Source of the DNA: Chthoniobacteraceae bacterium
Lineage (GTDB): Bacteria > Verrucomicrobiota > Verrucomicrobiia > Chthoniobacterales > Chthoniobacteraceae
Reading direction: 5' to 3'
Length of the DNA: 64,000 nucleotides
Assembly (NCBI GenBank): GCA_028293625.1
Contig: JAQGOL010000034.1
Location: 124,001 to 188,000, forward strand
The notes under the pieces were generated by a model. The model made no database searches. It had not been told where the DNA came from and saw nothing but the letters and a program-made list of their open reading frames with translations. The position numbers and the translations under genes were made by a program. Position 1 is the stretch's first letter. Each line of letters opens with the position of its first letter. Shown here piece by piece: positions 9,792 to 25,250 of this stretch.

Positions 9792-12700
9792 ATGCCTCCA
9801 TTTCTCAACCTGCTGCGCGCCGGACTCGAACACGGTGGATTTGAAACCGACGACGTCCTGCGAATCGTCCTGCCGCTCCTGCGCCAGGTGCAAGTCACCC
9901 ACGATGATGGCAAAGTGGCTCCCCTGCGAGGGCTCGATTCGATCACGCTCAGCGAAAACGGCACATTTCAATTCGACCCGGAAAAAGCGAAAGAGCCGTC
10001 TGATCAAAAGGCGCGAGTGGAGGCGGTGCAAAACCCGGTTACCACGGCGCTTCAGATTGTCGGGCAAGCCAGGGTAACAACTGAAGTGGGGGCAGGCTCT
10101 GCCACCATCACCAACCTGGAAGTGGGCCAGGACGAGGGAGCCGGAATGACTCACCCGATTTTTTTAACGGGTTACGTCGCATGGGAACAGATGCTCCAGC
10201 ATCACGACGCGCTCACCGACATTTTCTCCCTCGGGATGCTGATAGCCAGCCTAGCATGCGGACTCGATTTTACCGACCCGGACGATCTCAATCTTTTTGC
10301 TTCCAACCGGAACGACCTTTTTAAGCTGAACTCGCGGCTGCATCCGGTGCTCGCGGCGGTGATTACGGAGATGACCGAGCTCAACCGGCACCGGCGCTCG
10401 CCCGATCTGCCAACGCTCATCCAGCGGCTGGAAAACTACAGGGATCAGCCGGTCAACGTCGATTTGCGGCAGCTCCCCGGATTTGCTGATTCAGGTGTGC
10501 CGGGCCGGCGAAAAGTCATTCAATCCCATCTGCGCGACCGGCTTTTTGAAATCTCGCGTCGCAATCGCCTGGTCTACTTCCGGCCCACGCTCCAGACGCT
10601 CAACCTGACGGTCGCCTCGGTGCCAATGGTGCTCGATCTGCGGAGTGTCCGGCTTGAGCAGCTCTTTGTTTGGCACCCGGCGCTTGCCTCGGAGATCGTG
10701 GAAGGCAAACCGATGGCACTCGGAAAATACCTGCGCTTTGAAGATCAGCCTTATTTGCCGGGTGTGCTCGATAAACTGATCGCCGAGGCGCGCCGGGACC
10801 GAGCCGAATTTGGCTTTGCCCAGCTCCGGTTGGTCCTTTGTTTCCTGCATTGGCATAATTTGAAGGAATCGCCCGAGGAACGGATCATCTCGCCGCTGTT
10901 GCTGATGCCGGTTGAGTTGAGCCGCAAAAAAGGGGTGCGCGATCAATACGTGCTGCTTCCCGGCACAAGCGAAGCCGAAGTGAACCCGGCGCTTCGGCAT
11001 CATTTGCGCCAAGTCTACAACTTGCAGCTGCCCGAGACGGTCGACCTGCGTGAAACGAGCATGGAAGCCTTTCACGAGCAGCTAAAAGCGCAGATCCAGG
11101 CAAGTGAACCGGGCGTTACCCTTAACAGGATTGATAAACCGCAGATTGAACTCATTCACGAGCGCGCCAAGCAGCGGCTCGATCAATTCCGGCGACGGCA
11201 GAAATTGAAGGACGCGGGCAAACAGCCGCACGAACGCTTCGATTACAGTTACGAGCGGGAAAACCTCAAGCCGCTCGGCCTCCAGATCTTTCAACAAAAG
11301 ATCAAGCCTTCGCCCCTGCCGCATCGGGAAACCGCGGGCGCACTTCCCAAACCGCGTTTGCCGCAAATCGTCGCGGCGCCCGGACGCGAAACCGGCCGTG
11401 ACGCCTTTGCATTAAAATCAGGAAGCGGCGCCAATCGTTACGTCTGGGACTTTGACCTCTGCTCGATGACGCTGGGCAACTTTAATTATCGCAAGATGAC
11501 CTTGGTGCGCGATTACGCGCGGCTCATCGATAGCGACATGGCGAGTGAGGCTTTCGATCGGACATTCTCGCTCGATCCGAAATCGCTCGCTGACGACGAG
11601 GCTGTGCAAGGCGTTGTGCCGATCGAGGATCAATGGCTCGTGGTTCCAAGCGACGCGACGCAAGCCTCCGCGATCGCCAAGGCGCGCACGGGCGCCAGTT
11701 ACATCATCCAGGGCCCTCCCGGCACCGGCAAATCGCAGACAATCACCAACCTGATCGCCGATTTTGTGGCCCGGGGTAAACGGGTGCTTTTTGTCTGTGA
11801 AAAACGCGCGGCAATTGACGTGGTTTATTACCGTCTGAAACAGCAGGGCCTCGATGAACTCTGCTGTCTGATTCACGATTCGCAAACCGACAAAAAGGCT
11901 TTCATTCAAAACCTGCGCCGAACCTATGAAGGCTGGCTCTCCGGACAGGATGACGGCGAAATGGCGCGCGATCGGCGTATGGCTACGGTCCAGGCTATCG
12001 AACGCGAGCTGGATGGGCTCGAGCGTTTTTCCAATGCGATGGTCACGGTGCCAAGTCCGACCGGCATCACAGTTCGCAGGCTCTTTGACAGGTTGCTCGA
12101 ATTGCGCGCCCATGAGACAGCGCTCGATGCCCGGACCGCCGAGCATCTGCCCGACTACGCGCTTTGGCTCAGGCACGGCGCGCTGGCGCACCGGCTCGCC
12201 GCGGCACTCGGCGAGCTGAATCATGAGCCGATGTTTGCCGCGCATTCGTTCCGCTGGCTGGCTGAGGCTGTCATTCGCGCGGAGCGGCCACTGGAGACCC
12301 TGGAATCCGGCATCGCCCACGCACGCAAACTGATCGAGGAACTTGAGCAGGCTTTAACCGATAGCGGATTGCCGGAGGAACAGTGGGATGTATTGGAAAA
12401 AATCGGGACACTGCTGGAGTTCGCCCGCCGGATTGAACCGCTTGCGGCACGCCATCAACTTACCCTGCTCGATCCGGCAAGCCCGCTGGCGCATTCGTTT
12501 GCTGAACTGACCCGGGAAATCGAAACACGCACCCGTTTGGTCACCCTGGCGAAGGAAAAAACCATCGGCTGGGGCGATTGGAAAACCACGATCCCCCCGG
12601 GCGACGTCCCCGCCGCGCTCGCACAGGCGCGCGCCATGGAGACCTCCTTCTGGCGCTTTTTCCAACCGGCATGGTGGAAGCTGAAGAAGACGATCGAGCG

Positions 12701-14939
12701 AGCATACGATTTCTCCAGACACGCGATCCGGCCGCTGTTTTCGCAAATCCTCAGCGAGCTGGCGGCCGAACTGGAGGCGGAGGCTTCCCTTGCGGCATTG
12801 AATGACGAGATTCGCGCGAAGTTCGATTCAACACTCCCCGTGCAACTGGCGGCCGAACTTGCGGAGCTTCAGCGTCCGGCCGATCCGGTGGCAAAAGCGT
12901 TTCGGCAACTGCTTCTTCAGTCCGCGGATGCGGATGAAACGGTTGTCCGGCTCGCGAATCTTGCCCCGCGCTATGAAGAGCTTCACGAAGCGCTCTCGGA
13001 AGTTGTCCACGATTACGGAAAGCACGGTTTTGCGGCACTGGGTCAGGCGCTGACCGATCTGGATGAGGCAAGCGGCGATCTGCCCGATCTGCTGCCTGTG
13101 CTAAGCGAATTGATCGAAGCGCCGGCCGCGTTTTCCCATGCGCTCCGGCAGCTCTTCCTCACGCCCGATCAGATTGAAGCCGCGGCTGCCCGGCGCAGCC
13201 TCGACGCGTTCTATCGAAGCGAACGCTGGCTGTCGCGCTGCGATGGACGCGTCATTTCCCAGCACATGGACCGGGCGGCATCGTTGCAGAACGATTATTT
13301 CTCCCATAACGCCACCGTGCTCCGGGCCGAAGTGCGGCGGCGTTTCCGTGAAAACGTGCAGATCTCCTCTCAACCAGCCGGCGGTCTGACACCCGAGGAG
13401 AAGTTGTTTAAAAAGGGCTACACGGCGGGACGGCGCGCCCTTGAGCACGAGTTCGGCAAATCGATGCGTTACAAATCGATCCGCGAACTGGCGGCAGGCG
13501 AATCCGGGCAGGTTGTCTGGGATCTTAAACCGATCTGGTTGATGAGCCCGTTGAGCGTGTCGGACACGCTGCCGCTTGAAACCAATGCGTTTGATGTCGT
13601 CATATTCGATGAGGCAAGCCAGGTGCCCGTCGAAGAAGCCGTTCCCGCGCTCTACCGCGCAGCGCAGGTCATCGTCGTTGGAGACGAAATGCAGCTTCCT
13701 CCCACCACATTTTTTGCCGGAGCCCGCGGTGCCGATGAAGAGAGCGTCGAGGTGGAGGAAGCCGGCGAACAGATCAGCATCCCGCTCGATGCCGACAGTT
13801 TTTTAACCCAGAGCGCGAGAAACCTCCCGTCGACCTTGCTTGCATGGCATTACCGGAGCCGGTCTGAAGCACTGATCAGTTTCAGCAACGCGGCGTTTTA
13901 CGCGGGCAACCTCTTTACCATCCCCGACCGGCATATCGCGGTCGATTTGCAGGAAACGCCCCCGGCCCTCCCCGCCACGCCGGCCGTGCAGGGAGCTGAT
14001 CAGCTTCTGGCAAAAAGCATCAGTTTTCATCGGATGGAACGCGGTGTTTACGAGCAGCGCCGGAATGCGGTGGAAGCCGCTTATATCGCGGAGCTTGTGC
14101 GGGAGTTGCTTCGGCGAAACACGGAATTGAGCCTTGGAATCGTGGCGTTCAGCGAAGCCCAGCAAGGCGAAATCGAGTCCGCGCTTGAAACCCTGGCAGG
14201 CGAGGACACCGAGTTTGGCGCGTTGCTTGAAGCGGAGATGGTTCGCGAAAAGGATGAGCAGTTTTGCGGGCTCTTTATTAAGAACCTTGAAAATGTCCAG
14301 GGCGATGAGCGCGACATCATCGTGTTAAGCATTTGTTACGCGCCGGCAAAAGATGGCCGGATGCTCATGAACTTCGGGCCGATCAACCAGCGCGGCGGCG
14401 AGAAACGGCTCAACGTCATCTTCAGCCGCGCCAAGCATCACATGGCGGTCATCAGCAGCATCGGTTATGAAGCGATTACCAACGATTTCAACGACGGCGC
14501 GCATGCCTTGAAGAATTACCTGCAATACGCCGAAGCAACTTCACGCGGCGATCGTGCCAATGCGCAGCTTCTCCTGGAGAGCCTTAACCCACTCAGCCGG
14601 AAAACACTCAATTCCGGCATCGCCACGCGCGACACGGTGATCGAACAACTGGCGGCCGCCCTGCGCGCCCGCGGCCATACGGTCGCTCTTCACGTCGGCC
14701 AATCCCGTTTCCGCTGCGACATGGCGGTGAGCAAACCCGGCGGCACCGAATATCTCCTCGGGATCTTCATTGATTCCAAGGCGCACTATTCAAATCCCGA
14801 TATCCTTGAACGTTATATCACCCAGCCATCCATCCTTCGCGCGTTTGGCTGGAAAACGACGCTCATCCTCGGCCGCGACTGGTTTTTCGAACCTGAAGCC
14901 GTCCTGGAACGAATCGATCGGCTGCTTCAGGCGGGCTAA
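9792..14939 (+). CDS. Pseudokinase / DUF4011 / superfamily 1 helicase / nuclease fusion
   Basis: 1715 residues. (1) Residues about 1-230 resemble the C-lobe of a Ser/Thr kinase: YVAWEQ in place of Y-x-APE, DIFSLGM starting at Asp143, and a closing Arg near 199-202. The glycine loop, the HRD and the DFG motifs are absent, so it is a pseudokinase. (2) A DUF4011-like segment starts near 236 (RDRLFEISRRNRLVYF). (3) A COG1112-type helicase follows, with Walker A GPPGTGKS at 641-648, a long helical insertion, and Walker B IFDEASQ with Asp1273-Glu1274. (4) A Vsr/MTES_1575-like PD-(D/E)XK nuclease end contains Asp1643, Asp1661 and Lys1663. The parts recall Mokosh-type defence proteins (kinase plus helicase), but here the nuclease is of another family and in the same chain. 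Confidence 0.85.
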   Translation: MPPFLNLLRAGLEHGGFETDDVLRIVLPLLRQVQVTHDDGKVAPLRGLDSITLSENGTFQFDPEKAKEPSDQKARVEAVQNPVTTALQIVGQARVTTEVGAGSATITNLEVGQDEGAGMTHPIFLTGYVAWEQMLQHHDALTDIFSLGMLIASLACGLDFTDPDDLNLFASNRNDLFKLNSRLHPVLAAVITEMTELNRHRRSPDLPTLIQRLENYRDQPVNVDLRQLPGFADSGVPGRRKVIQSHLRDRLFEISRRNRLVYFRPTLQTLNLTVASVPMVLDLRSVRLEQLFVWHPALASEIVEGKPMALGKYLRFEDQPYLPGVLDKLIAEARRDRAEFGFAQLRLVLCFLHWHNLKESPEERIISPLLLMPVELSRKKGVRDQYVLLPGTSEAEVNPALRHHLRQVYNLQLPETVDLRETSMEAFHEQLKAQIQASEPGVTLNRIDKPQIELIHERAKQRLDQFRRRQKLKDAGKQPHERFDYSYERENLKPLGLQIFQQKIKPSPLPHRETAGALPKPRLPQIVAAPGRETGRDAFALKSGSGANRYVWDFDLCSMTLGNFNYRKMTLVRDYARLIDSDMASEAFDRTFSLDPKSLADDEAVQGVVPIEDQWLVVPSDATQASAIAKARTGASYIIQGPPGTGKSQTITNLIADFVARGKRVLFVCEKRAAIDVVYYRLKQQGLDELCCLIHDSQTDKKAFIQNLRRTYEGWLSGQDDGEMARDRRMATVQAIERELDGLERFSNAMVTVPSPTGITVRRLFDRLLELRAHETALDARTAEHLPDYALWLRHGALAHRLAAALGELNHEPMFAAHSFRWLAEAVIRAERPLETLESGIAHARKLIEELEQALTDSGLPEEQWDVLEKIGTLLEFARRIEPLAARHQLTLLDPASPLAHSFAELTREIETRTRLVTLAKEKTIGWGDWKTTIPPGDVPAALAQARAMETSFWRFFQPAWWKLKKTIERAYDFSRHAIRPLFSQILSELAAELEAEASLAALNDEIRAKFDSTLPVQLAAELAELQRPADPVAKAFRQLLLQSADADETVVRLANLAPRYEELHEALSEVVHDYGKHGFAALGQALTDLDEASGDLPDLLPVLSELIEAPAAFSHALRQLFLTPDQIEAAAARRSLDAFYRSERWLSRCDGRVISQHMDRAASLQNDYFSHNATVLRAEVRRRFRENVQISSQPAGGLTPEEKLFKKGYTAGRRALEHEFGKSMRYKSIRELAAGESGQVVWDLKPIWLMSPLSVSDTLPLETNAFDVVIFDEASQVPVEEAVPALYRAAQVIVVGDEMQLPPTTFFAGARGADEESVEVEEAGEQISIPLDADSFLTQSARNLPSTLLAWHYRSRSEALISFSNAAFYAGNLFTIPDRHIAVDLQETPPALPATPAVQGADQLLAKSISFHRMERGVYEQRRNAVEAAYIAELVRELLRRNTELSLGIVAFSEAQQGEIESALETLAGEDTEFGALLEAEMVREKDEQFCGLFIKNLENVQGDERDIIVLSICYAPAKDGRMLMNFGPINQRGGEKRLNVIFSRAKHHMAVISSIGYEAITNDFNDGAHALKNYLQYAEATSRGDRANAQLLLESLNPLSRKTLNSGIATRDTVIEQLAAALRARGHTVALHVGQSRFRCDMAVSKPGGTEYLLGIFIDSKAHYSNPDILERYITQPSILRAFGWKTTLILGRDWFFEPEAVLERIDRLLQAG

Positions 14940-15054: not shown

Positions 15055-15903
15055 ATGATCCTCCACGTCCCCCGCCGCCATTTCTTGCCGCAGAACACAA
15101 ACGTGTCTGCCGCACTGGTTCCGGCGTGGAGAGGCTTGTTGTGCGTGTTTTTGGCAACCGTGCATCTTCTCTTGAATGCCGGATTCGCGGCGCCGCCCAC
15201 CTCGGCAGTGCCCGTTTCCGACGGAATCATGCTGCCGCGCAACCGGGCCAACCTCAGCATCCCGGTTGAGGCACGCGTGCGTGAACTCCATGTGGAGGAA
15301 GGGCAGACCGTTCACAAAGGCGACATCCTTGCGATCCTCTATACGGAGTCGGAGGAACTCGCGTGCGAACGCGCGGCGGCCCAGCTTAAACGCGCCGAAG
15401 TCATTCACCGCTCCAAGTTGAAGTTGAAAGAGACCAATGGAGTGGCCGAACTCGATCTCATCGGCGCCGAAGTCGATCTTGAACTGGCGAAAATCGAACT
15501 GCGCCGTTCCCGGGCCGAGTTGCGTGATAAGACCCTGTTCGCGCCGTGGGACGGCCAGGTATTGCGTCTCTTAAAAAGCGCGGGCGAGACGGCCAATCGC
15601 GGGGAAAAAATCATCGAGCTGATCGATTACTCGACCATCTACATCGACGTTTATCTCGATGCGCAATATCTCAACGTCGTCCGGCCCGGCCAGCGCGCCA
15701 ATATCTCCGGGGACGCCGTCGGTCCACTCCCGGCTCTCGCCACGGCGCTCATGGTTGATCCCGTGGTGGAACCCGGCAGCGGACTTACCCGGGTACGGCT
15801 TCAAATGCCAAACGCGGATCTGCGCATTCCGACCGGCCTGCCGGTGAAAGTGGCCTTTGCGGTGGATGAAACCGCGAAAACGGCGGGAAGTGAATCAAGA
15901 TAG
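15055..15903 (+). CDS. HlyD-type membrane fusion / adaptor protein
   Basis: 282 residues from ATG 15055; an upstream in-frame TTG at 15028 would add nine. The N-terminus has a basic start, a hydrophobic segment (GLLCVFLATVHLLL) and an Ala-rich cleavage zone, so the protein is exported or anchored. A biotinyl-lipoyl-like half domain (VRELHVEEGQTVHKGD) leads into an alpha-helical hairpin of about 70 residues. The second half-domain (TLFAPWDGQVLRLLKSAGE) and a beta-barrel segment close it. This is the standard architecture of the periplasmic adaptors of tripartite pumps and type I exporters. It is the first of three HlyD-like genes at this locus, and no ABC or RND transporter gene is next to it. 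Confidence 0.85.
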   Translation: MILHVPRRHFLPQNTNVSAALVPAWRGLLCVFLATVHLLLNAGFAAPPTSAVPVSDGIMLPRNRANLSIPVEARVRELHVEEGQTVHKGDILAILYTESEELACERAAAQLKRAEVIHRSKLKLKETNGVAELDLIGAEVDLELAKIELRRSRAELRDKTLFAPWDGQVLRLLKSAGETANRGEKIIELIDYSTIYIDVYLDAQYLNVVRPGQRANISGDAVGPLPALATALMVDPVVEPGSGLTRVRLQMPNADLRIPTGLPVKVAFAVDETAKTAGSESR

Positions 15904-15961
15904 CGGCTGGTCCGCGCTTGCGCCCGCTTCATCCAGGGCTAAAATCGCAGCGCCCCGCAAA

Positions 15962-15989
15962 AAAATCGACCTGCTACGGGCTCGATTTT
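15962..15989. terminator. Inverted repeat with T-run, terminator-like
   Basis: The arms AAAATCGA (15962-15969) and TCGATTTT (15982-15989) are perfect and separated by 12 bp. They lie 59 bp after the HlyD stop codon and 39 bp before the sigma-factor ATG. A-rich and T-rich flanks fit a bidirectional weak terminator. An operator for the sigma gene is the alternative. Confidence 0.4.
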
Positions 15990-16027
15990 CAGACAAGAAC
16001 GCCCCCTTCCTTCGTGCTTCGAGCAGG

Positions 16028-17836
16028 ATGAACATCGAAAAGTTACGCACCCTTTGGGACGAGCACGCGAAAGCGGTCTACGCCTATCTGCTGCACCTCA
16101 CCCGAAATGAGGCCGACGCGAGCGATTTTCTTCAGGATCTTTTCTCACGGCTCGCGCGTCAGCCTGAGTTGCTTGACAAACTGCATGGGGAACCGCGCGG
16201 TTATTTATTGCGGCTTGCCCGCAATACTGTTGTCGACCAGGTGCGCCGGCATCAGGCCAGGGAACGGGTTTTTGAAAAAATCAATGCGTTGAGACCGGCC
16301 GAATTTGCCGAGGCCGAAGATCCCGACAATCCCCTTTTGCGCGATGCGCTGGCGGATGCGCTGGCTCAATTGCCTCTTGAACAGCGCACGGTAGCCCATG
16401 CGCGGCTTTGGAAAAAACAAACACTCGAGACGATCTCAAGCGAGCTCGGGATTTCAATCAACACGGCCGCGAGCCGATACCGTTATGCATTAGACAAAAT
16501 GCGCGAGCGTCTTCGTTACCTTTATGAAGACCTCGTGCCGAGCGCCGTCCAAAAAGCCATCCCTGCCATGAATCAAAAACCGAGGAATCCATTCCATCGT
16601 TTCGAGGAGCCGATCATCCAGCCGCTCGAAGCGCGCCGGGTTCCCTCGGCGACCGGGGCGGGTTTTGCGCTGCCGATTTTGCCCATGCCCGATGACCATT
16701 CGCACGAGGAAGGAATCGAGCACTCGATGGAGCACCCGGCGGAGACAGATCATATTGAGGAAATCGAGCCGCTTTTTGACGGGCACGACCCGCATTTTGA
16801 CGATGCGCATCTGGAGGCGTTCCTCCATATCGACACCACAAACGTGCATCTTCCCATCACTTTTGATCATGTGATGCAAACCGTGGGCAAAGAAAGCGCG
16901 CCCGCCGCTTCCAGCGACCATGACATCGTTTGGGCAATGGAGACGCTTCAGCCTGCCAACGCGCAGATCCAATTGATCCATAACCAGATTTTGTTGAACC
17001 CGGCGGATGACGGGCATGTTTCGGATCAGCCAATTACCACGGGAACGGTTTTGACCGGAAACGGCGGTTCGCTTCTCTCCTCGTTTAATTTAACCGTCAA
17101 CAACACCGCTTCTTTCACACTGGCGACGGTCAACGACGCTGGAAAGCTGACCGTGGTGGTTGCCAATCACGAAAGCGATCCGGCGCCCGAGCCGATCCCC
17201 GCTTCGGATACCGTTGCAGAGCATACCGATCTGAAAACCACGATGCCGGAAACGCCGGAGGATACCAATGAATCCTCGGGGGAAGCACCGCATTCGGGAC
17301 ACATAGTTGTGGCCACCCACGAAACTGTTGCAGCCCCGGTTCTTGACCACCCAACGGTTCTTTCTAAGGAAGTAACAGTTAAGCCCGGTCTCCAGGTGAC
17401 GGATTTTCACCAGATCGAGCACCCTGAGAACGCGCATTCCGAGACGGCGCCTCCCGTCGTTCACGAAGTTGATTTGCCAGAACCAGCGACCGGCGTCTCC
17501 TGGCATGCCCATTCCGAGCATCCGATTGTTTCGTTGGATCTCGATCCCGCGCCGAATCCCGTGGAGCAGCATCCTGCCGATTTTGCCCAGCACCCGGTCG
17601 CGGTTGACCAGTGGGTGCCGGTTCATGACGATTCGGGCGATGCCATCCCGGATGACCTCGGCAGCCACCGTATCGAGCCCATCGAGCTTCAATTGGAAAA
17701 ACATCCCCTTGATATCGCGGATCCGGGCGCGTGGACCACACCGCCTCTCCGCGGCAGCGCAATTGCCATGGCCGCAACAGGTTCCATTCTATTAAGTAAC
17801 GAAGAAAAATCGCGTAGACGGAACGAACGCGACTAA
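16028..17836 (+). CDS. ECF sigma factor fused to LEPR-like His/acid-rich protein
   Basis: 602 residues from ATG 16028. Residues 1-175 are a sigma70-family ECF factor: region 2 is visible in YAYLLHLTRNEADASDFLQD, and region 4 in LPLEQRTVAHARLWKKQTLE with the helix-turn-helix ISSELGISINTAASR. Without a stop the frame continues through an internal ATG at 16568 into about 420 residues rich in His, Glu, Asp and Pro. This part opens with IIQPLEARRVPSA, which resembles the LEPR-XLL motif at the start of large surface proteins of Planctomycetes and Verrucomicrobia. It ends with a small hydrophobic stretch (GSAIAMAATGSILL) and a basic tail. It may be a true fusion or two products from one frame. It lies between HlyD-like genes. 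Confidence 0.82.
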   Translation: MNIEKLRTLWDEHAKAVYAYLLHLTRNEADASDFLQDLFSRLARQPELLDKLHGEPRGYLLRLARNTVVDQVRRHQARERVFEKINALRPAEFAEAEDPDNPLLRDALADALAQLPLEQRTVAHARLWKKQTLETISSELGISINTAASRYRYALDKMRERLRYLYEDLVPSAVQKAIPAMNQKPRNPFHRFEEPIIQPLEARRVPSATGAGFALPILPMPDDHSHEEGIEHSMEHPAETDHIEEIEPLFDGHDPHFDDAHLEAFLHIDTTNVHLPITFDHVMQTVGKESAPAASSDHDIVWAMETLQPANAQIQLIHNQILLNPADDGHVSDQPITTGTVLTGNGGSLLSSFNLTVNNTASFTLATVNDAGKLTVVVANHESDPAPEPIPASDTVAEHTDLKTTMPETPEDTNESSGEAPHSGHIVVATHETVAAPVLDHPTVLSKEVTVKPGLQVTDFHQIEHPENAHSETAPPVVHEVDLPEPATGVSWHAHSEHPIVSLDLDPAPNPVEQHPADFAQHPVAVDQWVPVHDDSGDAIPDDLGSHRIEPIELQLEKHPLDIADPGAWTTPPLRGSAIAMAATGSILLSNEEKSRRRNERD

Positions 17837-17916
17837 TTTGCAACTCCTCGCTGAAAAGCTGCTTGAAGAGGGAGAAGCCCGGTGGCATTTGCCGCTTTCG
17901 GTTTTTCTAACTCCCT

Positions 17917-19701
17917 ATGCTTCTTGCCGGCGACTCCCCAGCGCAACGCTCTTCACTGCCGGAATTCCGGAGTGAAATCGATCTGCCTGCAAGCTGGCTC
18001 GGAATTGCCCTCGATTCGGGGACGCCGGATTTTTTCGAAAAGCTTCTGGCCCATCTCATCGTTCAAAGCGGAGCGACCGGTGCGGGCATCTGGCTGATTG
18101 TTCAAACCGCGCGTGGCAGCGGGCTTTCTTACAAAGCCAGCCGCGGTTATCCTTCCACCGAACCTGCGTGGAACGGCTGGATGAAGGAACAGGTCCGCAC
18201 TTTGATCACTTCCCGGCGGCCGCTCGTGATCCCGGCCAATCCCAATGGATTCCCCAAGACGCCTTCCATTTTTGTTCCCCTTGTGTGGGAAGGAACCGGC
18301 CTTGGCGTTATCCTCGTCAGCGGGCCGGACCTGAGTCTCGAGGAGATCACGCGCCTGGGCACGCTGGCAGGCTGGGCCACGCGTCTGCATTTGCGCCGGC
18401 CCGAGCCCGTCACGCCCGCCCCGGATCTCGCCAATGCGTTGCTGGCGAGCCCGCATTCCGCCGAATGGCCGGGAATTTTCGCCTCGCATTTGCGCACAAA
18501 AAGCGGGGCCTGGCGTGCGAGTCTTTTACACGAACAAAACGGCCAGTGGCGCATGATGGCGGTCTCGGGCGTGGTTGAGGTAAAACGCCGCACGGCCGAA
18601 TCCCGCGCGATTGAACAAGCATTTGCAAAGCGGGCCGCATCGACCGGGGACGCCGAGCACCCGATCATTGCGCTGCGTTTTGAAGCAGCCCCCGGCTGGG
18701 GCGCGCTTTTGGAGTTTGAAAAGCATGCCGCCACCGATGCGGTCGTGGGAAATCTGGCTGACGTGATGCGCATCGGCGGTCTCGTGCTGCCACGGATGCA
18801 GATCCGAGGCTGGCGGCTGGCAATTTCCCGCCGCCTTTTGGAACAGCGAAACGCGGCCTCACCAAAGGCCAGCCGTTGGGTGGTCGCCGCGCTCGCGACC
18901 TTGTTTCTCATTGCCGGATGCATTCCGGTGGTGGAGACATTTGAAGGCGATTGCGAACTCCAGCCGGCCCAGCGTTTCGCGGTCGTTGCTGAAGTCGAGG
19001 GGCGCATCCAATCCATCGACGTTCAGGAAGGCGCGCTGGTTCATACCGGGCAAACGCTCGGGCAACTCGAAGTCGGCACGCTTAAAACGCGATTGGAAGT
19101 CGCTCGCGAACAGGTCATGGAACAGGAAGCGCAAGCCCGCCGCTCCCAGGGACTTCAGGATATGACCGGCTATCGGCTTGCGAAGTTGAAAACCGAGCAG
19201 AACGCCCAGGAAGCCGCCTCGCTCACCGAGGATATCCGTCGGTCCACGCTTCTCGCCCCCATCGACGGCAAAGTGCTCACCAAAGATCTGGCTCAGAAAC
19301 AAGGAACCGTCCTGCGGCTTGGTGACACGTTTTGTGAGGTAGGCGGACTCAATGCGTGGAATCTTCAGGTCGCGCTCAATGAAGAGGATCTAAGCGCGTT
19401 TTTGCACGCGCTTCAAAAAAACGGGCAGCTGGCGATCGCTTATCGGCTCAAGGCGGGGTCGAGCGTGGCGCTCGCAGCCAAGGTAAATTCGGTGGGGCAG
19501 ATCAGCGAAATGGCTTACCCGATGGATGGGAAAAATGTGATCTATATCACCGTTCCCGGCGTGGAGATCCCGGAGGAACTCTTGAACGATCTGCGTCCGG
19601 GCTTTTCGGGCCGGGCTCGAATCGAGGGGCACCGGCGTCCCTGGGCGCTCATTTCGACCCGGCGACTGGCGCAATATCTCAGGCTTCACTGGTGGTTATG
19701 A
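17917..19701 (+). CDS. GAF-like and HlyD-domain membrane protein
   Basis: 594 residues. The N-terminal half (about 30-300) looks like one or two GAF-type sensor domains (VQSGATGAGIWLIVQTARG; LVWEGTGLGVILVSG). A single membrane segment follows at about 320-345 (WVVAALATLFLIAGCIPVV). The C-terminal part is a HlyD-type adaptor: lipoyl half domains VEGRIQSIDVQEGALVHTG and LLAPIDGKVLTKDLAQKQG around a short helical hairpin. The sensor half should be cytoplasmic and the adaptor half periplasmic. The stop codon overlaps the next gene's ATG (ATGA at 19698-19701), showing translational coupling with the M50-HlyD protein. I infer that the two products act in one envelope complex. Confidence 0.82.
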   Translation: MLLAGDSPAQRSSLPEFRSEIDLPASWLGIALDSGTPDFFEKLLAHLIVQSGATGAGIWLIVQTARGSGLSYKASRGYPSTEPAWNGWMKEQVRTLITSRRPLVIPANPNGFPKTPSIFVPLVWEGTGLGVILVSGPDLSLEEITRLGTLAGWATRLHLRRPEPVTPAPDLANALLASPHSAEWPGIFASHLRTKSGAWRASLLHEQNGQWRMMAVSGVVEVKRRTAESRAIEQAFAKRAASTGDAEHPIIALRFEAAPGWGALLEFEKHAATDAVVGNLADVMRIGGLVLPRMQIRGWRLAISRRLLEQRNAASPKASRWVVAALATLFLIAGCIPVVETFEGDCELQPAQRFAVVAEVEGRIQSIDVQEGALVHTGQTLGQLEVGTLKTRLEVAREQVMEQEAQARRSQGLQDMTGYRLAKLKTEQNAQEAASLTEDIRRSTLLAPIDGKVLTKDLAQKQGTVLRLGDTFCEVGGLNAWNLQVALNEEDLSAFLHALQKNGQLAIAYRLKAGSSVALAAKVNSVGQISEMAYPMDGKNVIYITVPGVEIPEELLNDLRPGFSGRARIEGHRRPWALISTRRLAQYLRLHWWL

Positions 19702-21836
19702 ATTCGACGGAACGCCGGATTGGATTCAAGCTGCGAAACGACCTTCAGGTTTCCCACCAGCACCGCGATGGGATTGATCGCGCGGTGATAAAAGATCCGC
19801 ATTCGCTCCGTTTTTTTGAGATGGCCTGGAGCGATTACCAGCTTGCCATGACGGTTCAAAACGGCGGCACGGCGCCCGAAATCGTTGAGCAATGGCGGCG
19901 CTCGTTTCCCGAGTTGTGTGATGGAATCGAACAGGAAGCGCTGGAGCGGCGGGCTGAACGCCTCTGCATCGCTACACGACGGCTCGGGCTCGTGGAAGAA
20001 AGCGGACCACTCCGCGCGACACCGGCGGCGCTTGGCTGGGGCGCATGGCTTCTGCGGTGGGTCCGTTGGATTGGCGCCCCGATGGCCATTCGCATCCGGC
20101 TTTTTGATCCCGATGCTTTCCTGTCGCAAATCGTGGCTCGATGGCGCCCGCTTTTTTCCCTTCCCGCGCTCTTCCTCGCCTCGGTCTTTGTGATCGTCTC
20201 ACTGATTGCCGCCCTCAGCCGGTTCGATGAGATGGAATTTCACGCCGAATGGTTTCACATCTGGCAGAACCTCGCGGCCCTTTACCTCGGGATCCTGGTT
20301 CTGAAGGTCGTTCACGAAAGCGGGCACGCGCTGGTTTGTAAAACGCTTGGCGGCCATGTGCATGAAGTCGGTGCGCAATTGCTCGTTTTTCATCCCACTT
20401 TTTTCGTCGATGTCTCCGACACGTGGATGTGGCCGGACCGGCGCCGGCGGATCGCAGTGGCCGCGGCTGGATTCGGCGCCGAAATGATCGCCGCCGCGTT
20501 TCTTTTCTGGCTCTGGAGACTTCTCTCTCCCGGGTTCGCCCGCGATCTCTGTCTGAACCTCATGTTCATCGCCAGCGTGAGCGCCGTGCTTTTTAATATC
20601 AACCCGTTGATGCGTTATGACGGCTATCACATGCTCGCGGATTTGCTGCGCGAACCGCGGTTGCGCCAGAAAGCCTTTGCCTCGATCGGGCTCACCATCC
20701 GCCGGTTCTTTTTTGGTAAAACACTCGTGCCGGTCGTTTTTGAAAAACATCAAACCGTATTTACGATCTACGGCATCCTGAGCACTACCTACCTCATTTG
20801 GATCGTAGTCGCGGTGGGCGGCTTTTTACGACATCTTCTGGCGCCTCTCGGCTTGGAGGCGGGCGGCCGCGTTCTGTTGGCCGCGTGGCTTTGCTCGATG
20901 CTCCTCCCGCTGCTCGGCTTTTTTGGCAAAATCATCCGCGATACATTGCAGCTCAGTGCCCCGGAGCGGCGCCGTCCCATCGTGGTCTGGGCCAGCCTGA
21001 TTTCCACGGCGATCTTTGCCGCGTTCATGCCGTTGCAAATCCGCGTGGAACGCGAATGTGTGGTGGAGGTGGCCGCGGCTGGCGTTGTCCGCGCATCGCA
21101 GGCCGGTTTTTTAAAGGAGGTTCTCGTTCGCGAGGGAGAACGCGTCAAAAAAGGACAACTTCTTGCGCGGCTGGAAAATCGATCCCTTGCACTTACGAAA
21201 ATAAAGGCTGAGATCGAGGTCGGATTAACCAAAGTCGCCCTCATGAGCGCGGTTGGCGGCAATCAATCGGGACATGTCCAGCAAGGGATGCGCCGTTTTA
21301 ATGAGGCACGGGCCAACGAATTGGAAGCCGCGCGGCGCAGCGGCACTTTGGAGCTTTTGAGCCCATGCGACGGCGTCGTGCTGACCCGGCTGCTGGAACG
21401 CAAACACGGTCAATTCATCCGTCCCGGCGAAGAAGTCATCAGTGTGGCTCCGGAAAATACGCGCGAAATCATGCTCCCATTGACCGAGAAAGAAGCGCGC
21501 CGTGTTAAGGAAGGGGCTTGGGTGGAGTTTCGTGCCAAGGCGTTTTCAGAATCAAAATTCACGGGCCGCATCAGCACGGCTCCACTACGGATCAAGGGTG
21601 GCGATCTCCCGCGTGCTCTCACGGCATTGGCCGGGGGCGATATCACGGTCGACGCAAGCGGCAAAGTTTTCTCCTCTGAAGTCACCCATGTGAGCAGGTT
21701 CATTGTCGAACCGGCCGATCCGCGGCTCAGACAAGGTTTGAGCGGACGCGCCCGGCTCGATTGCGGCACCCTTCCCGCCGCGCGCTGGCTCTGGGAAAAA
21801 GCGCTCGATGCCATTCATCTCGAGCACCGAATGTAA
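19698..21836 (+). CDS. M50 (site-2) protease with HlyD domain and PqqD-like N-terminus
   Basis: 712 residues. The ATG at 19698 is chosen because it overlaps the preceding stop as ATGA; a GTG at 19692 is the alternative. Residues about 1-110 form a small helical-winged region like the PqqD/RRE domain that binds leader peptides. The membrane protease core shows HESGH with His206, Glu207 and His210, and NINPLMRYDG with Asp308 as the third ligand. Several further membrane segments follow. After about residue 450 comes a HlyD-type adaptor (VVRASQAGFLKEVLVREGE; LLSPCDGVVLTRLLE). Similar proteins are annotated as peptide zinc metalloproteases of the YydH type in peptide-export loci. No ABC exporter is visible nearby. 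The likely role is processing or exporting a partner protein. Confidence 0.87.
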   Translation: MNSTERRIGFKLRNDLQVSHQHRDGIDRAVIKDPHSLRFFEMAWSDYQLAMTVQNGGTAPEIVEQWRRSFPELCDGIEQEALERRAERLCIATRRLGLVEESGPLRATPAALGWGAWLLRWVRWIGAPMAIRIRLFDPDAFLSQIVARWRPLFSLPALFLASVFVIVSLIAALSRFDEMEFHAEWFHIWQNLAALYLGILVLKVVHESGHALVCKTLGGHVHEVGAQLLVFHPTFFVDVSDTWMWPDRRRRIAVAAAGFGAEMIAAAFLFWLWRLLSPGFARDLCLNLMFIASVSAVLFNINPLMRYDGYHMLADLLREPRLRQKAFASIGLTIRRFFFGKTLVPVVFEKHQTVFTIYGILSTTYLIWIVVAVGGFLRHLLAPLGLEAGGRVLLAAWLCSMLLPLLGFFGKIIRDTLQLSAPERRRPIVVWASLISTAIFAAFMPLQIRVERECVVEVAAAGVVRASQAGFLKEVLVREGERVKKGQLLARLENRSLALTKIKAEIEVGLTKVALMSAVGGNQSGHVQQGMRRFNEARANELEAARRSGTLELLSPCDGVVLTRLLERKHGQFIRPGEEVISVAPENTREIMLPLTEKEARRVKEGAWVEFRAKAFSESKFTGRISTAPLRIKGGDLPRALTALAGGDITVDASGKVFSSEVTHVSRFIVEPADPRLRQGLSGRARLDCGTLPAARWLWEKALDAIHLEHRM

Positions 21837-22007: not shown

Positions 22008-25000
22008 ATGAAACGGATTCTATTAACTTCCTACTCGGTGCTCGCCGTCCTGGTCACTTCGCTCGGAGCGGCTCCGGCGAAAGTCTCCCTGACCACGCCC
22101 ACTTTCACAATCGGCCCGGTTCACCGGCGTCTGATTAAAGTCAATGTGCCGCCGGGGTTTGATTCCGTGACACTGGAAGTTTGCACCAATCTCAAGCGGG
22201 CTGAATGGAAACCGGTCGGCACCAAGGCGACAGCCAGCCTCGCAAGCGTCGTTGAGTTCAAGCTTGAGCGCGCTGTCTCCCGCCGCTTTCTTCGAGTTAA
22301 CGCGAAAGCCACTGCACCTGTCGCCGAGGATATTCAGACCGGGCCAAGCATATTCCTGGCGGATCCCGCGGCAGTGGCCAACGGAGCCTTTGCGTCCGGC
22401 AACGCCTTGCTTTCATCAAACAGCTTCGCTGCGGACTCCAAAAGCGGCGGCGAGGAGGCGCGCACTGTCTCTGAATCCGATATCTGGCGCGTCTCAGGCG
22501 ACAGACTCTATTTCTACAACGAACTTCGCGGTTTACAGGTCTTCGACATTAGCGAACCGGACTCCCCCGCGCTTCTTGGACAACTTCGCGCCAACGGCTA
22601 CGGCGATCAGATGTATCTGCTCGATGCCGGCCATGTCGCCCTGCTCACGCATTCCCCATCTGGTCTCGACGTCGATAGCAGCTCCCTTATCCTGGCCGAT
22701 GTATCGACCGGGAGACCGAAGAAAATTGGAAACGCTACCTACCCCGGATGGCTAAGGGAAAGCCGGCTGGTGGGCAAGGTGTTGTATGTCGTCTCGGAAT
22801 CTTATTATAACTCGGGCGCGGCGCTGCAGGTTACTTCGTTTGATCTCAGCGATCCGGCTCATCCGATCAAACGCGATACGCTCTCCCTCGGCGGCTATGG
22901 CGGCGTCATCACCGCAACCGATCGGTTTCTTTTCGTAACACGCTACTCGGAGACGGACTGGGATCATTCGCTTGTCGACATCATCGATATTACCTCGCCC
23001 ATCGGAGCGATAAAAAAGACGGGCACGATCGCCACCGCCGGCATCGTGAATGACAAATTCAAGATGCAGCTCAAAGGGGATACGTTCACGGTCGTCTCGG
23101 CGATTTCCCGGCGAACAGTGTGGGAGAATGGAGGAAATATCACGGTCCGCAATTCAAAGACCGCGGTTGAGACCTTTTCATTGAAAAATCCGGCCGCACC
23201 TGTTGCCCTCGGCAATATTAACCTTGGAATCGGCGAATCGGTTCGCGCCACACGTTTTGACGGTAACCGGCTTTATGTAGTGACCTTCTTTAGCATCGAT
23301 CCGCTCTGGGTTGTCGATCTTTCAATTCCCAAAAGCCCCGCATTACTTGGGGAACTTGAAGTACCCGGCTTTTCGAGCTACATCGAGCCGCTGGGCGACC
23401 GGCTTGTCGCCATCGGCAATGTCAATGGCAGGGTTGCCGTATCCCTTTTCGATGTCAGTGATCCGGCGCATCCCGCCTCCCTGAGCCAGATCCCGCTCGG
23501 CGATGGGTCATACTCCTATAGCGAAGCGAATTGGAACGAGAAGGCCGTCAACGTGGTGCCCGAGGAGAACCTGATCGTAGTTCCCTATTCAGGATACGAT
23601 GCCAACAGCGGCTACGCCTCGCGCGTCCAGCTCATTGACTTAAACCGCGACGCGTTGACCAAACGCGGCATCATTGAACATCCTTTTGCCGCGCGGCGCA
23701 CCGCGGTGGTAGGCGACCGGTTGCTGGCCATCTCTTCCTCAAACCTTGTGACAGTCGATTTCCTGGATCGCGACAAACCCAAGGTCACATCTGACGTGGA
23801 AATTGCCTGGCATGTTGATCGTGTATTTCTCGCCGACAATTATCTGGTGGAGCTTGGGAATGCCACGGGCTGGAATCCAGGCAGCCAGCCAACCATCACC
23901 GTGACTACGGCTTCCGCGCCGGACGGGTCCCTCAACGTAATCGATCTGGATAAGATTCCGGTGATTGGCTCTGCCATGCGGGATGGACGGCTCTACATCG
24001 CGCAGCAGAATACAAGATCGTATTACAACGGCTATATTACTCTTCTGACAACTACTGCAACGGCCGGCGTGACGCTCGCCCCCGATGACTTCACTGTTTC
24101 AGTCTACGACCTTACCAAGCTTCCCGCCGTTACTCTTCTTGGAAAAACCACCACAAAGGTCGGTTTTAATCTCAATTACGGCGCGCAGCTCAAAGCCGTC
24201 TGGCCTGCTCCCGGAATCCTCGTCTGGATGCGGCCACAGGATAGCTGGAACTACTGGTGGGGCGGGATCGTTTACAATAATTTTTCTTCCAACCTGGGCG
24301 TTGCCAATAGCAGCTTACTGACTTCCGCCGCTGACACCTCTCTCTCCAACGCATCCGCGTTCGCCAGCAATAATACAATCATCGCCGGCAGCCTCATCCT
24401 CCCAGCGATCCGCTGGTATCCCTACTATCAAGGCGACCAGGGCGGCACCGAAGCCGCCGTATTCGACGTAAGTTCCCCGAACACGCCGGTTTTCGCCTCC
24501 ACGTTCGATCTCCGCACCGGCGCAACAACAGACTGGAGCGACCCTTTTGTCAGCGATGGCAAACTCTATGTCAGCTCCATGGCCTATTCGAATGCCGAAG
24601 TCGTCGATCCTAAACTAAACAGCACCGATCTCACCGTGACGCCGAGAGCCGGCCGCCAGTTCATGAGAGTAGTTGGCTTCGATGGACCCAAGAAACCGCT
24701 CATTGGCCCTGAAATCAATATCCCCGGCCGGCTGATCGGAGTTCCGCGATTAGGCACGATGCTCTTAACGTCCGGGCCGCTCTATACAGACACGTTGAAA
24801 CCCTCCGGCGACCGCGCCATTCACGCCAGCAAATTTGACGGCGCCGCCGCTCACTTCATCAGCCAGATCCCGCTTCCCTTGTCGAATGGCGGTTATGCAG
24901 TCGACGGCGAAACTACCTTGGTCAACCTACCCGGGCAAACCACGCCGGCAGCCAAGCCCTCCATCCAAGCCTGGACCATTGACGGCAATGGCAAATTCCA

Positions 25001-25250
25001 GCTTGCGAGCACGACCGAGACCGATTCCTACGGCAACCTCGTTACTCTCCATGGGCTCGCCTTACTCGGATGGGGACCCGCCCAGCATCTCTACGACGTC
25101 ACTGATCCGGGTAAACTCATCGACCTCGGCTTTTTTACGAGCGCCGGCTCATATAGTGCCACCGTTGAAAACTCGGACGCCAATCCGGCGCGCGGTCTTT
25201 GGGAAGCTTCGGGCGACTACGGCGTTTCCTTTATCGAGTTCGGCAAGTAG
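22008..25250 (+). CDS. Secreted beta-propeller domain protein
   Basis: 1080 residues. An N-terminal Sec signal peptide (MKRILLTSYSVLAVLVTSLGAAP) precedes a small beta domain. Several LVIVD-like repeats follow of the type FDISEPDSPALLGQLR, FDLSDPAHPIKRD and FDVSDPAHPASLSQ. The segment VPGFSSYIEPLGDRLVAIG matches the Beta_propel (PF09826) family hallmark. It is probably a periplasmic or surface-associated propeller of unknown ligand. It follows the M50-HlyD gene by 171 bp on the same strand, making it a conceivable export client, although an ordinary Sec signal is present. A strong terminator at 25277-25310 ends the transcript. Confidence 0.85.
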   Translation: MKRILLTSYSVLAVLVTSLGAAPAKVSLTTPTFTIGPVHRRLIKVNVPPGFDSVTLEVCTNLKRAEWKPVGTKATASLASVVEFKLERAVSRRFLRVNAKATAPVAEDIQTGPSIFLADPAAVANGAFASGNALLSSNSFAADSKSGGEEARTVSESDIWRVSGDRLYFYNELRGLQVFDISEPDSPALLGQLRANGYGDQMYLLDAGHVALLTHSPSGLDVDSSSLILADVSTGRPKKIGNATYPGWLRESRLVGKVLYVVSESYYNSGAALQVTSFDLSDPAHPIKRDTLSLGGYGGVITATDRFLFVTRYSETDWDHSLVDIIDITSPIGAIKKTGTIATAGIVNDKFKMQLKGDTFTVVSAISRRTVWENGGNITVRNSKTAVETFSLKNPAAPVALGNINLGIGESVRATRFDGNRLYVVTFFSIDPLWVVDLSIPKSPALLGELEVPGFSSYIEPLGDRLVAIGNVNGRVAVSLFDVSDPAHPASLSQIPLGDGSYSYSEANWNEKAVNVVPEENLIVVPYSGYDANSGYASRVQLIDLNRDALTKRGIIEHPFAARRTAVVGDRLLAISSSNLVTVDFLDRDKPKVTSDVEIAWHVDRVFLADNYLVELGNATGWNPGSQPTITVTTASAPDGSLNVIDLDKIPVIGSAMRDGRLYIAQQNTRSYYNGYITLLTTTATAGVTLAPDDFTVSVYDLTKLPAVTLLGKTTTKVGFNLNYGAQLKAVWPAPGILVWMRPQDSWNYWWGGIVYNNFSSNLGVANSSLLTSAADTSLSNASAFASNNTIIAGSLILPAIRWYPYYQGDQGGTEAAVFDVSSPNTPVFASTFDLRTGATTDWSDPFVSDGKLYVSSMAYSNAEVVDPKLNSTDLTVTPRAGRQFMRVVGFDGPKKPLIGPEINIPGRLIGVPRLGTMLLTSGPLYTDTLKPSGDRAIHASKFDGAAAHFISQIPLPLSNGGYAVDGETTLVNLPGQTTPAAKPSIQAWTIDGNGKFQLASTTETDSYGNLVTLHGLALLGWGPAQHLYDVTDPGKLIDLGFFTSAGSYSATVENSDANPARGLWEASGDYGVSFIEFGK

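Follow-up and report, generated by a model that had tools for sequence, protein, structure and literature searches.

An ECF sigma factor with a conserved extension box in a SecA-free variant of the M50/HlyD module in Verrucomicrobiota

Clusters of M50-HlyD, GAF-HlyD and HlyD proteins around a secondary SecA were described in Planctomycetes and Verrucomicrobia by Kamneva et al. in 2015. An ABC transporter is missing from this module, SecA was proposed as the ATPase and the M50 protein as the pore, and the biological role of the module was called completely unknown (PMC4452313). A link between an M50 protease and transcription is found in IutY, an ECF sigma factor with a C-terminal extension that the protease RseP sets free (PMC8999054). 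EpeP, also an M50 protease, has been suggested to cut its peptide and to export it as well (PMC10885120). The locus described here, part of a 64,000-nucleotide stretch (the window) of a Chthoniobacteraceae genome, carries features of each of these systems.

The four consecutive forward-strand genes reported in the initial annotation are all present (Table 1), and the last two are coupled, as described there, by an ATGA overlap at 19698–19701; the M50-HlyD gene has an alternative GTG start at 19692. The sigma factor and its extension occupy an open frame that spans 15857–17836. No ABC exporter, SecA or TolC is encoded in the four-gene locus. Upstream, at 9792–14939 on the same strand, lies a gene for a 1715-aa DUF4011/superfamily-1 helicase/MTES_1575 endonuclease protein related to the anti-phage ProA and Hhe models, whose cut-offs of 1500 and 2000 bits it misses by a wide margin, scoring 680 and 470 bits, respectively. 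Just 3' of the locus, at 22008–25250 (+), a 1080-aa beta-propeller protein (PF09826, 1.2e-58) is encoded, which is not common to the other sigma-linked loci.

Table 1. Position of the genes and of the predicted elements within them (numbering of the window).
Feature	Coordinates	Strand	Basis
HlyD / RND-type periplasmic adaptor, 282 aa	15055..15903, ATG 15055	+	RND_mfp 8.9e-30, over cut-off; HlyD_D23
ECF sigma factor and long C-terminal extension, 602 aa in a single frame	16028..17836	+	sigma70-ECF 2.7e-18
In-frame ATG at sigma/extension junction, possible internal start	16568..16570	+	Met in 7/7 orthologues
Box EEPIIQPLEARRVPSATGAGFALPI in sigma extension, LEPR-like, candidate recognition element	16604..16678	+	conserved in 7 sequences
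C-terminus of sigma extension: Ala/Gly-rich, weakly hydrophobic segment with basic tail	17735..17833 (approximate)	+	hydropathy
GAF-type domain(s)-TM-HlyD protein, 594 aa	17917..19701	+	RND_mfp 4e-17
RRE/PqqD-like domain - M50 intramembrane protease - HlyD, 712 aa from ATG	19698..21836	+	M50/daptide models
Predicted RRE/PqqD-like domain of M50-HlyD, about first 100 residues	19698..19991	+	AF2, Foldseek

Three of the four window parts belong to the known module, with the same M50-HlyD, GAF-HlyD and HlyD cluster and the same lack of an ABC transporter; the sigma fusion is the added piece. Thus, the export part of what had been proposed as an undescribed system had already been described in 2015, where it adjoins a second SecA and lacks an ABC pump (PMC4452313). 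The window locus differs from that module in that neither the locus nor the genome has a secondary SecA, the locus has no TolC, and the M50 protein falls in a separate clade. The M50-HlyD module is widespread in Planctomycetota and Verrucomicrobiota, many loci having no sigma gene, and occurs in three arrangements: with SecA and often TolC (e.g. L056, L058, L218, L227), with TolC and no SecA (e.g. L039), and, as in the window, with the sigma factor and neither SecA nor TolC. The second arrangement is represented in the window's own genome by a further copy (G000:C24, L039 5311–12145) adjoining purH- and pdxJ-type genes. Its order is GAF-HlyD, HlyD, M50-HlyD, TolC; it shares the three module proteins with the window, with M50 proteins that are 34% identical, and differs in the presence of TolC, the absence of sigma, the gene order and the M50 clade. 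This paralogous copy also identifies the GAF part by homology: the region has no Pfam match of its own in the window protein, which is called GAF because the C24 paralogue, aligned with it over the length, matches GAF_2 at 1.2e-7. An AlphaFold2 model of the window protein (pLDDT 82.7) compared with the PDB matches AcrA, MexA and MacA over its HlyD part, all of the matches listed being membrane-fusion proteins.

The initial annotation had suggested that repeated co-occurrence of all four genes in other genomes would support a system, and such co-occurrence was observed. Of the 213 genomes of the order that were searched, seven (G000, G001 and G003 of family f1, G068 and G071 of f12, G099 and G105 of f6) encode the sigma factor with its extension; they span at least three families within one Verrucomicrobiota order. 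The f12 and f6 pairs are each close together, so the independent lineages number about five. Named records of genus-mates comprise Chthoniobacter-labelled and Spartobacteria MAGs. In all seven, HlyD stands first and precedes sigma, and wherever the contig continues it is followed, without exception, by the GAF-type HlyD and then M50-HlyD; three loci end with their contig, inside GAF-HlyD (G071), the sigma extension (G099) or M50 (G105). BLAST comparison of loci from different families found only these four genes, with their antisense shadows, in common, and the constancy of the four genes amid differing flanks indicates that they form a cassette. The sigma-linked (A-type) proteins form one clade with support of 100 in a tree built from 102 M50-HlyD sequences; the only clade member without a visible sigma gene (L170) lies on a short contig whose sequence begins shortly before the M50 gene. 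The cassette therefore looks to have arisen once and then been kept or moved as a unit. A possible ECF-like element, CGTC.TAT.CCC, is seen upstream of HlyD in L153–L156, a hint common to two families; no such element is found upstream of HlyD in the window.

Co-occurrence of this kind lends good support to the idea, put forward in the initial annotation, that a sensor, an adaptor, a protease and a dedicated sigma factor make up a system of their own. It also bears on whether the HlyD proteins might instead work with an ABC or RND exporter whose gene lies elsewhere, the neighbourhood being coincidental. The genome does encode numerous ABC transporters at other places, and several TolC-like proteins, including the TolC of the C24 locus. 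However, no HlyB-type exporter in the genome scores over the curated cut-off; of the three HlyD domains of the operon, one is joined to the M50 part and one to the GAF part, and the cassette is conserved in several families despite changed flanks. We consider service to a distant exporter highly improbable.

The sigma part, about residues 1–167, matches Sigma70_r2 (4.6e-12) and Sigma70_r4 (1.8e-7) in Pfam and has no sigma3 region, the composition that defines ECF factors. It is joined without a stop codon to an extension of about 420 residues, and this architecture is identical in the seven genomes, with extensions of some 400–650 aa. Pfam and curated-model searches found no recognised domains or repeats in the extension. 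It is little conserved apart from one box, its only strongly conserved part, with the pattern [IL]I.[PT]L...[RK]RVPS and the consensus SERLI.PLEPKRVPSVAPG, in which I, L, R, V, P and S are invariant in all seven sequences. Nothing convincing resembling the box was found elsewhere in the same genome, in 57 relatives or in a 388-genome sample of the phylum; the next matches, in G028 and G013, lie deep within large proteins and look like chance. Since an in-frame Met is present at the junction in all seven orthologues, with A-rich start-like codons, the extension may also be made as a separate protein; a Shine-Dalgarno-like AGGAG at a good distance from the internal ATG is seen in L041 only. At the C-terminus, the best 19-residue hydropathy is 0.95 in the window protein and 0.79–1.25 over the extension C-termini, so that the segment, judged by its sequence, is too weakly hydrophobic to be a clear transmembrane helix of the sort expected for IutY-like release. 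A plain membrane tether of sigma is weakened as an explanation, because hydropathy gives it no support.

The initial annotation had described a LEPR-like protein in one frame with the sigma factor, LEPR-XLL being a mark of large surface proteins. The protein in question is in fact the sigma factor's own extension and no large surface protein in its own right. The resemblance itself stands in part: the box is conserved and recalls LEPR-XLL (LEPRxLLSA) in its position-by-position shape, while the NCBIfam LEPR-XLL model (NF012209) matches neither the extension nor the box even at E<=10, and membership of that family was rejected on this basis. Against a home-made profile built from seven LEPR-type boxes, the window box scores 8.4 bits, a value equalled or exceeded in 4 of 4000 shuffles; those of the other orthologues score lower or similarly, two of them unimpressively. 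As the curated model fails to match, the box is called LEPR-like here, not LEPR-XLL. LEPR-XLL surface proteins share with the window extension the shape of the box and a short hydrophobic C-terminus with basic residues. They differ in matching NF012209, in having repeats and in carrying the box near the start of a large surface protein, among its first tens of residues, and not behind a sigma factor. Among the 57 relatives, six genomes have LEPR matches, and four of these six also match M50-HlyD, numbers too small to be informative.

Proteins of the LEPR type adjoin related modules. Six Planctomycetota loci (L210, L223, L230, L235, L237, L240) have a small gene between HlyD and GAF-HlyD, which encodes a PilZ (c-di-GMP type) protein by Pfam in both cases tested (L210 8400–8831 and L230 2050–2493), and in several of the six a large surface-type protein is encoded directly upstream. 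That of L210 passes the LEPR-XLL model, and that of L237 carries VEARILLSA, with no NF012209 match among the matches listed; both end in a short hydrophobic segment with basic residues, and the upstream proteins of L230, L235 and L240 end similarly. In G008 (C91; L161, L247, L248) a secondary SecA gene is immediately followed by a LEPR-XLL frame, whose length of 22,555 aa depends on the correctness of a draft assembly. The presence of a PilZ regulator in the same slot and of LEPR-type proteins upstream was counted in favour of an explanation in which sigma and module work together.

These neighbours, the shared C-terminal ending, the LEPR-like score of the box and the junction Met also speak for the extension, or a separate protein started at the junction ATG, being cargo that the module exports. 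An unexported extension would then hold sigma, and transcription would follow export, a logic similar to that of FlgM export in flagella. Against this, NF012209 is unmatched, the extension has neither repeats nor a recognised folded domain, a Shine-Dalgarno-like site accompanies the internal ATG in a single locus, and the cassette has no export ATPase or TolC. The only SecA_DEAD match in the genome (E=7.8e-118) falls in a frame of 991 aa, and SecA-driven export was rejected for want of a second SecA. Export of the extension as cargo is, in our estimation, on the unlikely side; it differs from the mechanism that we favour, docking of the box on the M50 protein and release of sigma, only in the events after recognition.

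The partner proposed for the box is the M50-HlyD protein, which matches the daptide HExxH protease model at 2.5e-43 and the YydH/LiaK epipeptide protease model at 2.2e-12, both below the models' own cut-offs, Peptidase_M50 at 27.8 bits over a cut-off of 27.2, and HlyD_3 at 2.6e-12. The site is intact (HExxH/NPxxRxDG), HExxH and NPLMRxDGY being invariant in A-type proteins, and these two motifs, the second with its Asp, together with the match to Peptidase_M50 place the enzyme among site-2-type proteases. An AlphaFold2 model of the N-terminus, built from 27 sequences, has pLDDT above 90 over residues 10–100, which form three strands followed by three helices. The top Foldseek matches of this domain, with probability 1.00 and E-values of about 1e-3 to 2e-2, are PqqD and RRE domains of TbiB1 in complex with their leader peptides, and the best PDB sequence match is PqqD 3g2b at a marginal E=0.063. 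By its predicted fold, the N-terminus is a leader-peptide-binding RRE/PqqD domain. RRE domains bind leader peptides and hand them to an enzyme. The combination of RRE, M50 and HlyD in one chain would thus be suited to the recognition and cleavage of a peptide segment and perhaps to its onward transfer, and the sigma box is the only conserved candidate for such a segment in the operon. The domain aligns across the M50-HlyD family in Planctomycetota and Verrucomicrobiota, loci without sigma included, which indicates that it did not arise for sigma.

The existence of so many sigma-less loci suggests a simpler arrangement, as does the occurrence of regulatory C-terminal extensions in at least 26 ECF groups (PMC8999054). 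The sigma factor could be an ordinary co-transcribed regulator: the module would do its usual job in export or processing, sigma would regulate the operon, and the extension would be a cytoplasmic regulatory sensing domain. However, the extension has no recognisable sensory domain, the fusion is strictly linked to the cassette across several families with no other common neighbour, and the same operon encodes both a predicted peptide-recognition domain and a protease. We regard this ordinary arrangement as unlikely.

The data presented above have led us to propose a model in which the cassette is a self-contained variant of the M50/HlyD module, whereby the RRE domain of M50-HlyD docks the box in the sigma extension and the M50 site trims, cuts or holds the extension. 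Sigma would thereby be freed, or relieved if the extension goes outward. The GAF-HlyD protein would act as a cytoplasmic/periplasmic sensor and HlyD as adaptor, release of sigma following the state of the export complex and of the GAF sensor, and the freed sigma would switch on a regulon that probably includes its own operon and the cargo. Any export would call on a TolC encoded elsewhere in the genome to complete the channel. Access of M50 to the extension would depend on the weakly hydrophobic C-terminal segment, and we infer both the cleavage and the cargo. To docking followed by cleavage and release of sigma we would give an even chance. A broader statement, that sigma is a client of an export machine whose RRE-bearing protease-adaptor recognises the leader-like box and cuts or exports the extension, is offered tentatively, at somewhat less than an even chance.

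Each proposed step has a precedent in IutY/RseP or EpeP. IutY (ECF243; PMC8999054, PMC5411451) is, like the window protein, an ECF sigma factor with a C-terminal extension, and the M50 protease is its established activator, a role that is a proposal for the window sigma. IutY functions with a membrane anti-sigma in siderophore cell-surface signalling, whereas the window extension has no anti-sigma domain; and the window M50, unlike RseP, is fused to RRE and HlyD and encoded in the same operon as its presumed client. The EpeP/YydH epipeptide and daptide HExxH proteases have the M50 fold of the window protein, to which, as to EpeP/YydH, peptide cleavage and export are attributed by proposal. In contrast to those systems, no small precursor peptide was found at the window locus, HlyD and RRE are fused to the protease, and sigma is the candidate substrate.

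The sigma-fused cassette without SecA, TolC or ABC transporter is a new form of a known module of untested function. The RRE domain on the M50 protein and the conserved box of the sigma extension provide a concrete candidate recognition pair for a common module, and suggest that gene expression is tied to export in some Verrucomicrobiota. If this is true, leader recognition known from peptide natural products (RiPP-style) would also drive transcription control and perhaps, in view of the LEPR-XLL neighbours of related modules, the export of giant surface proteins.
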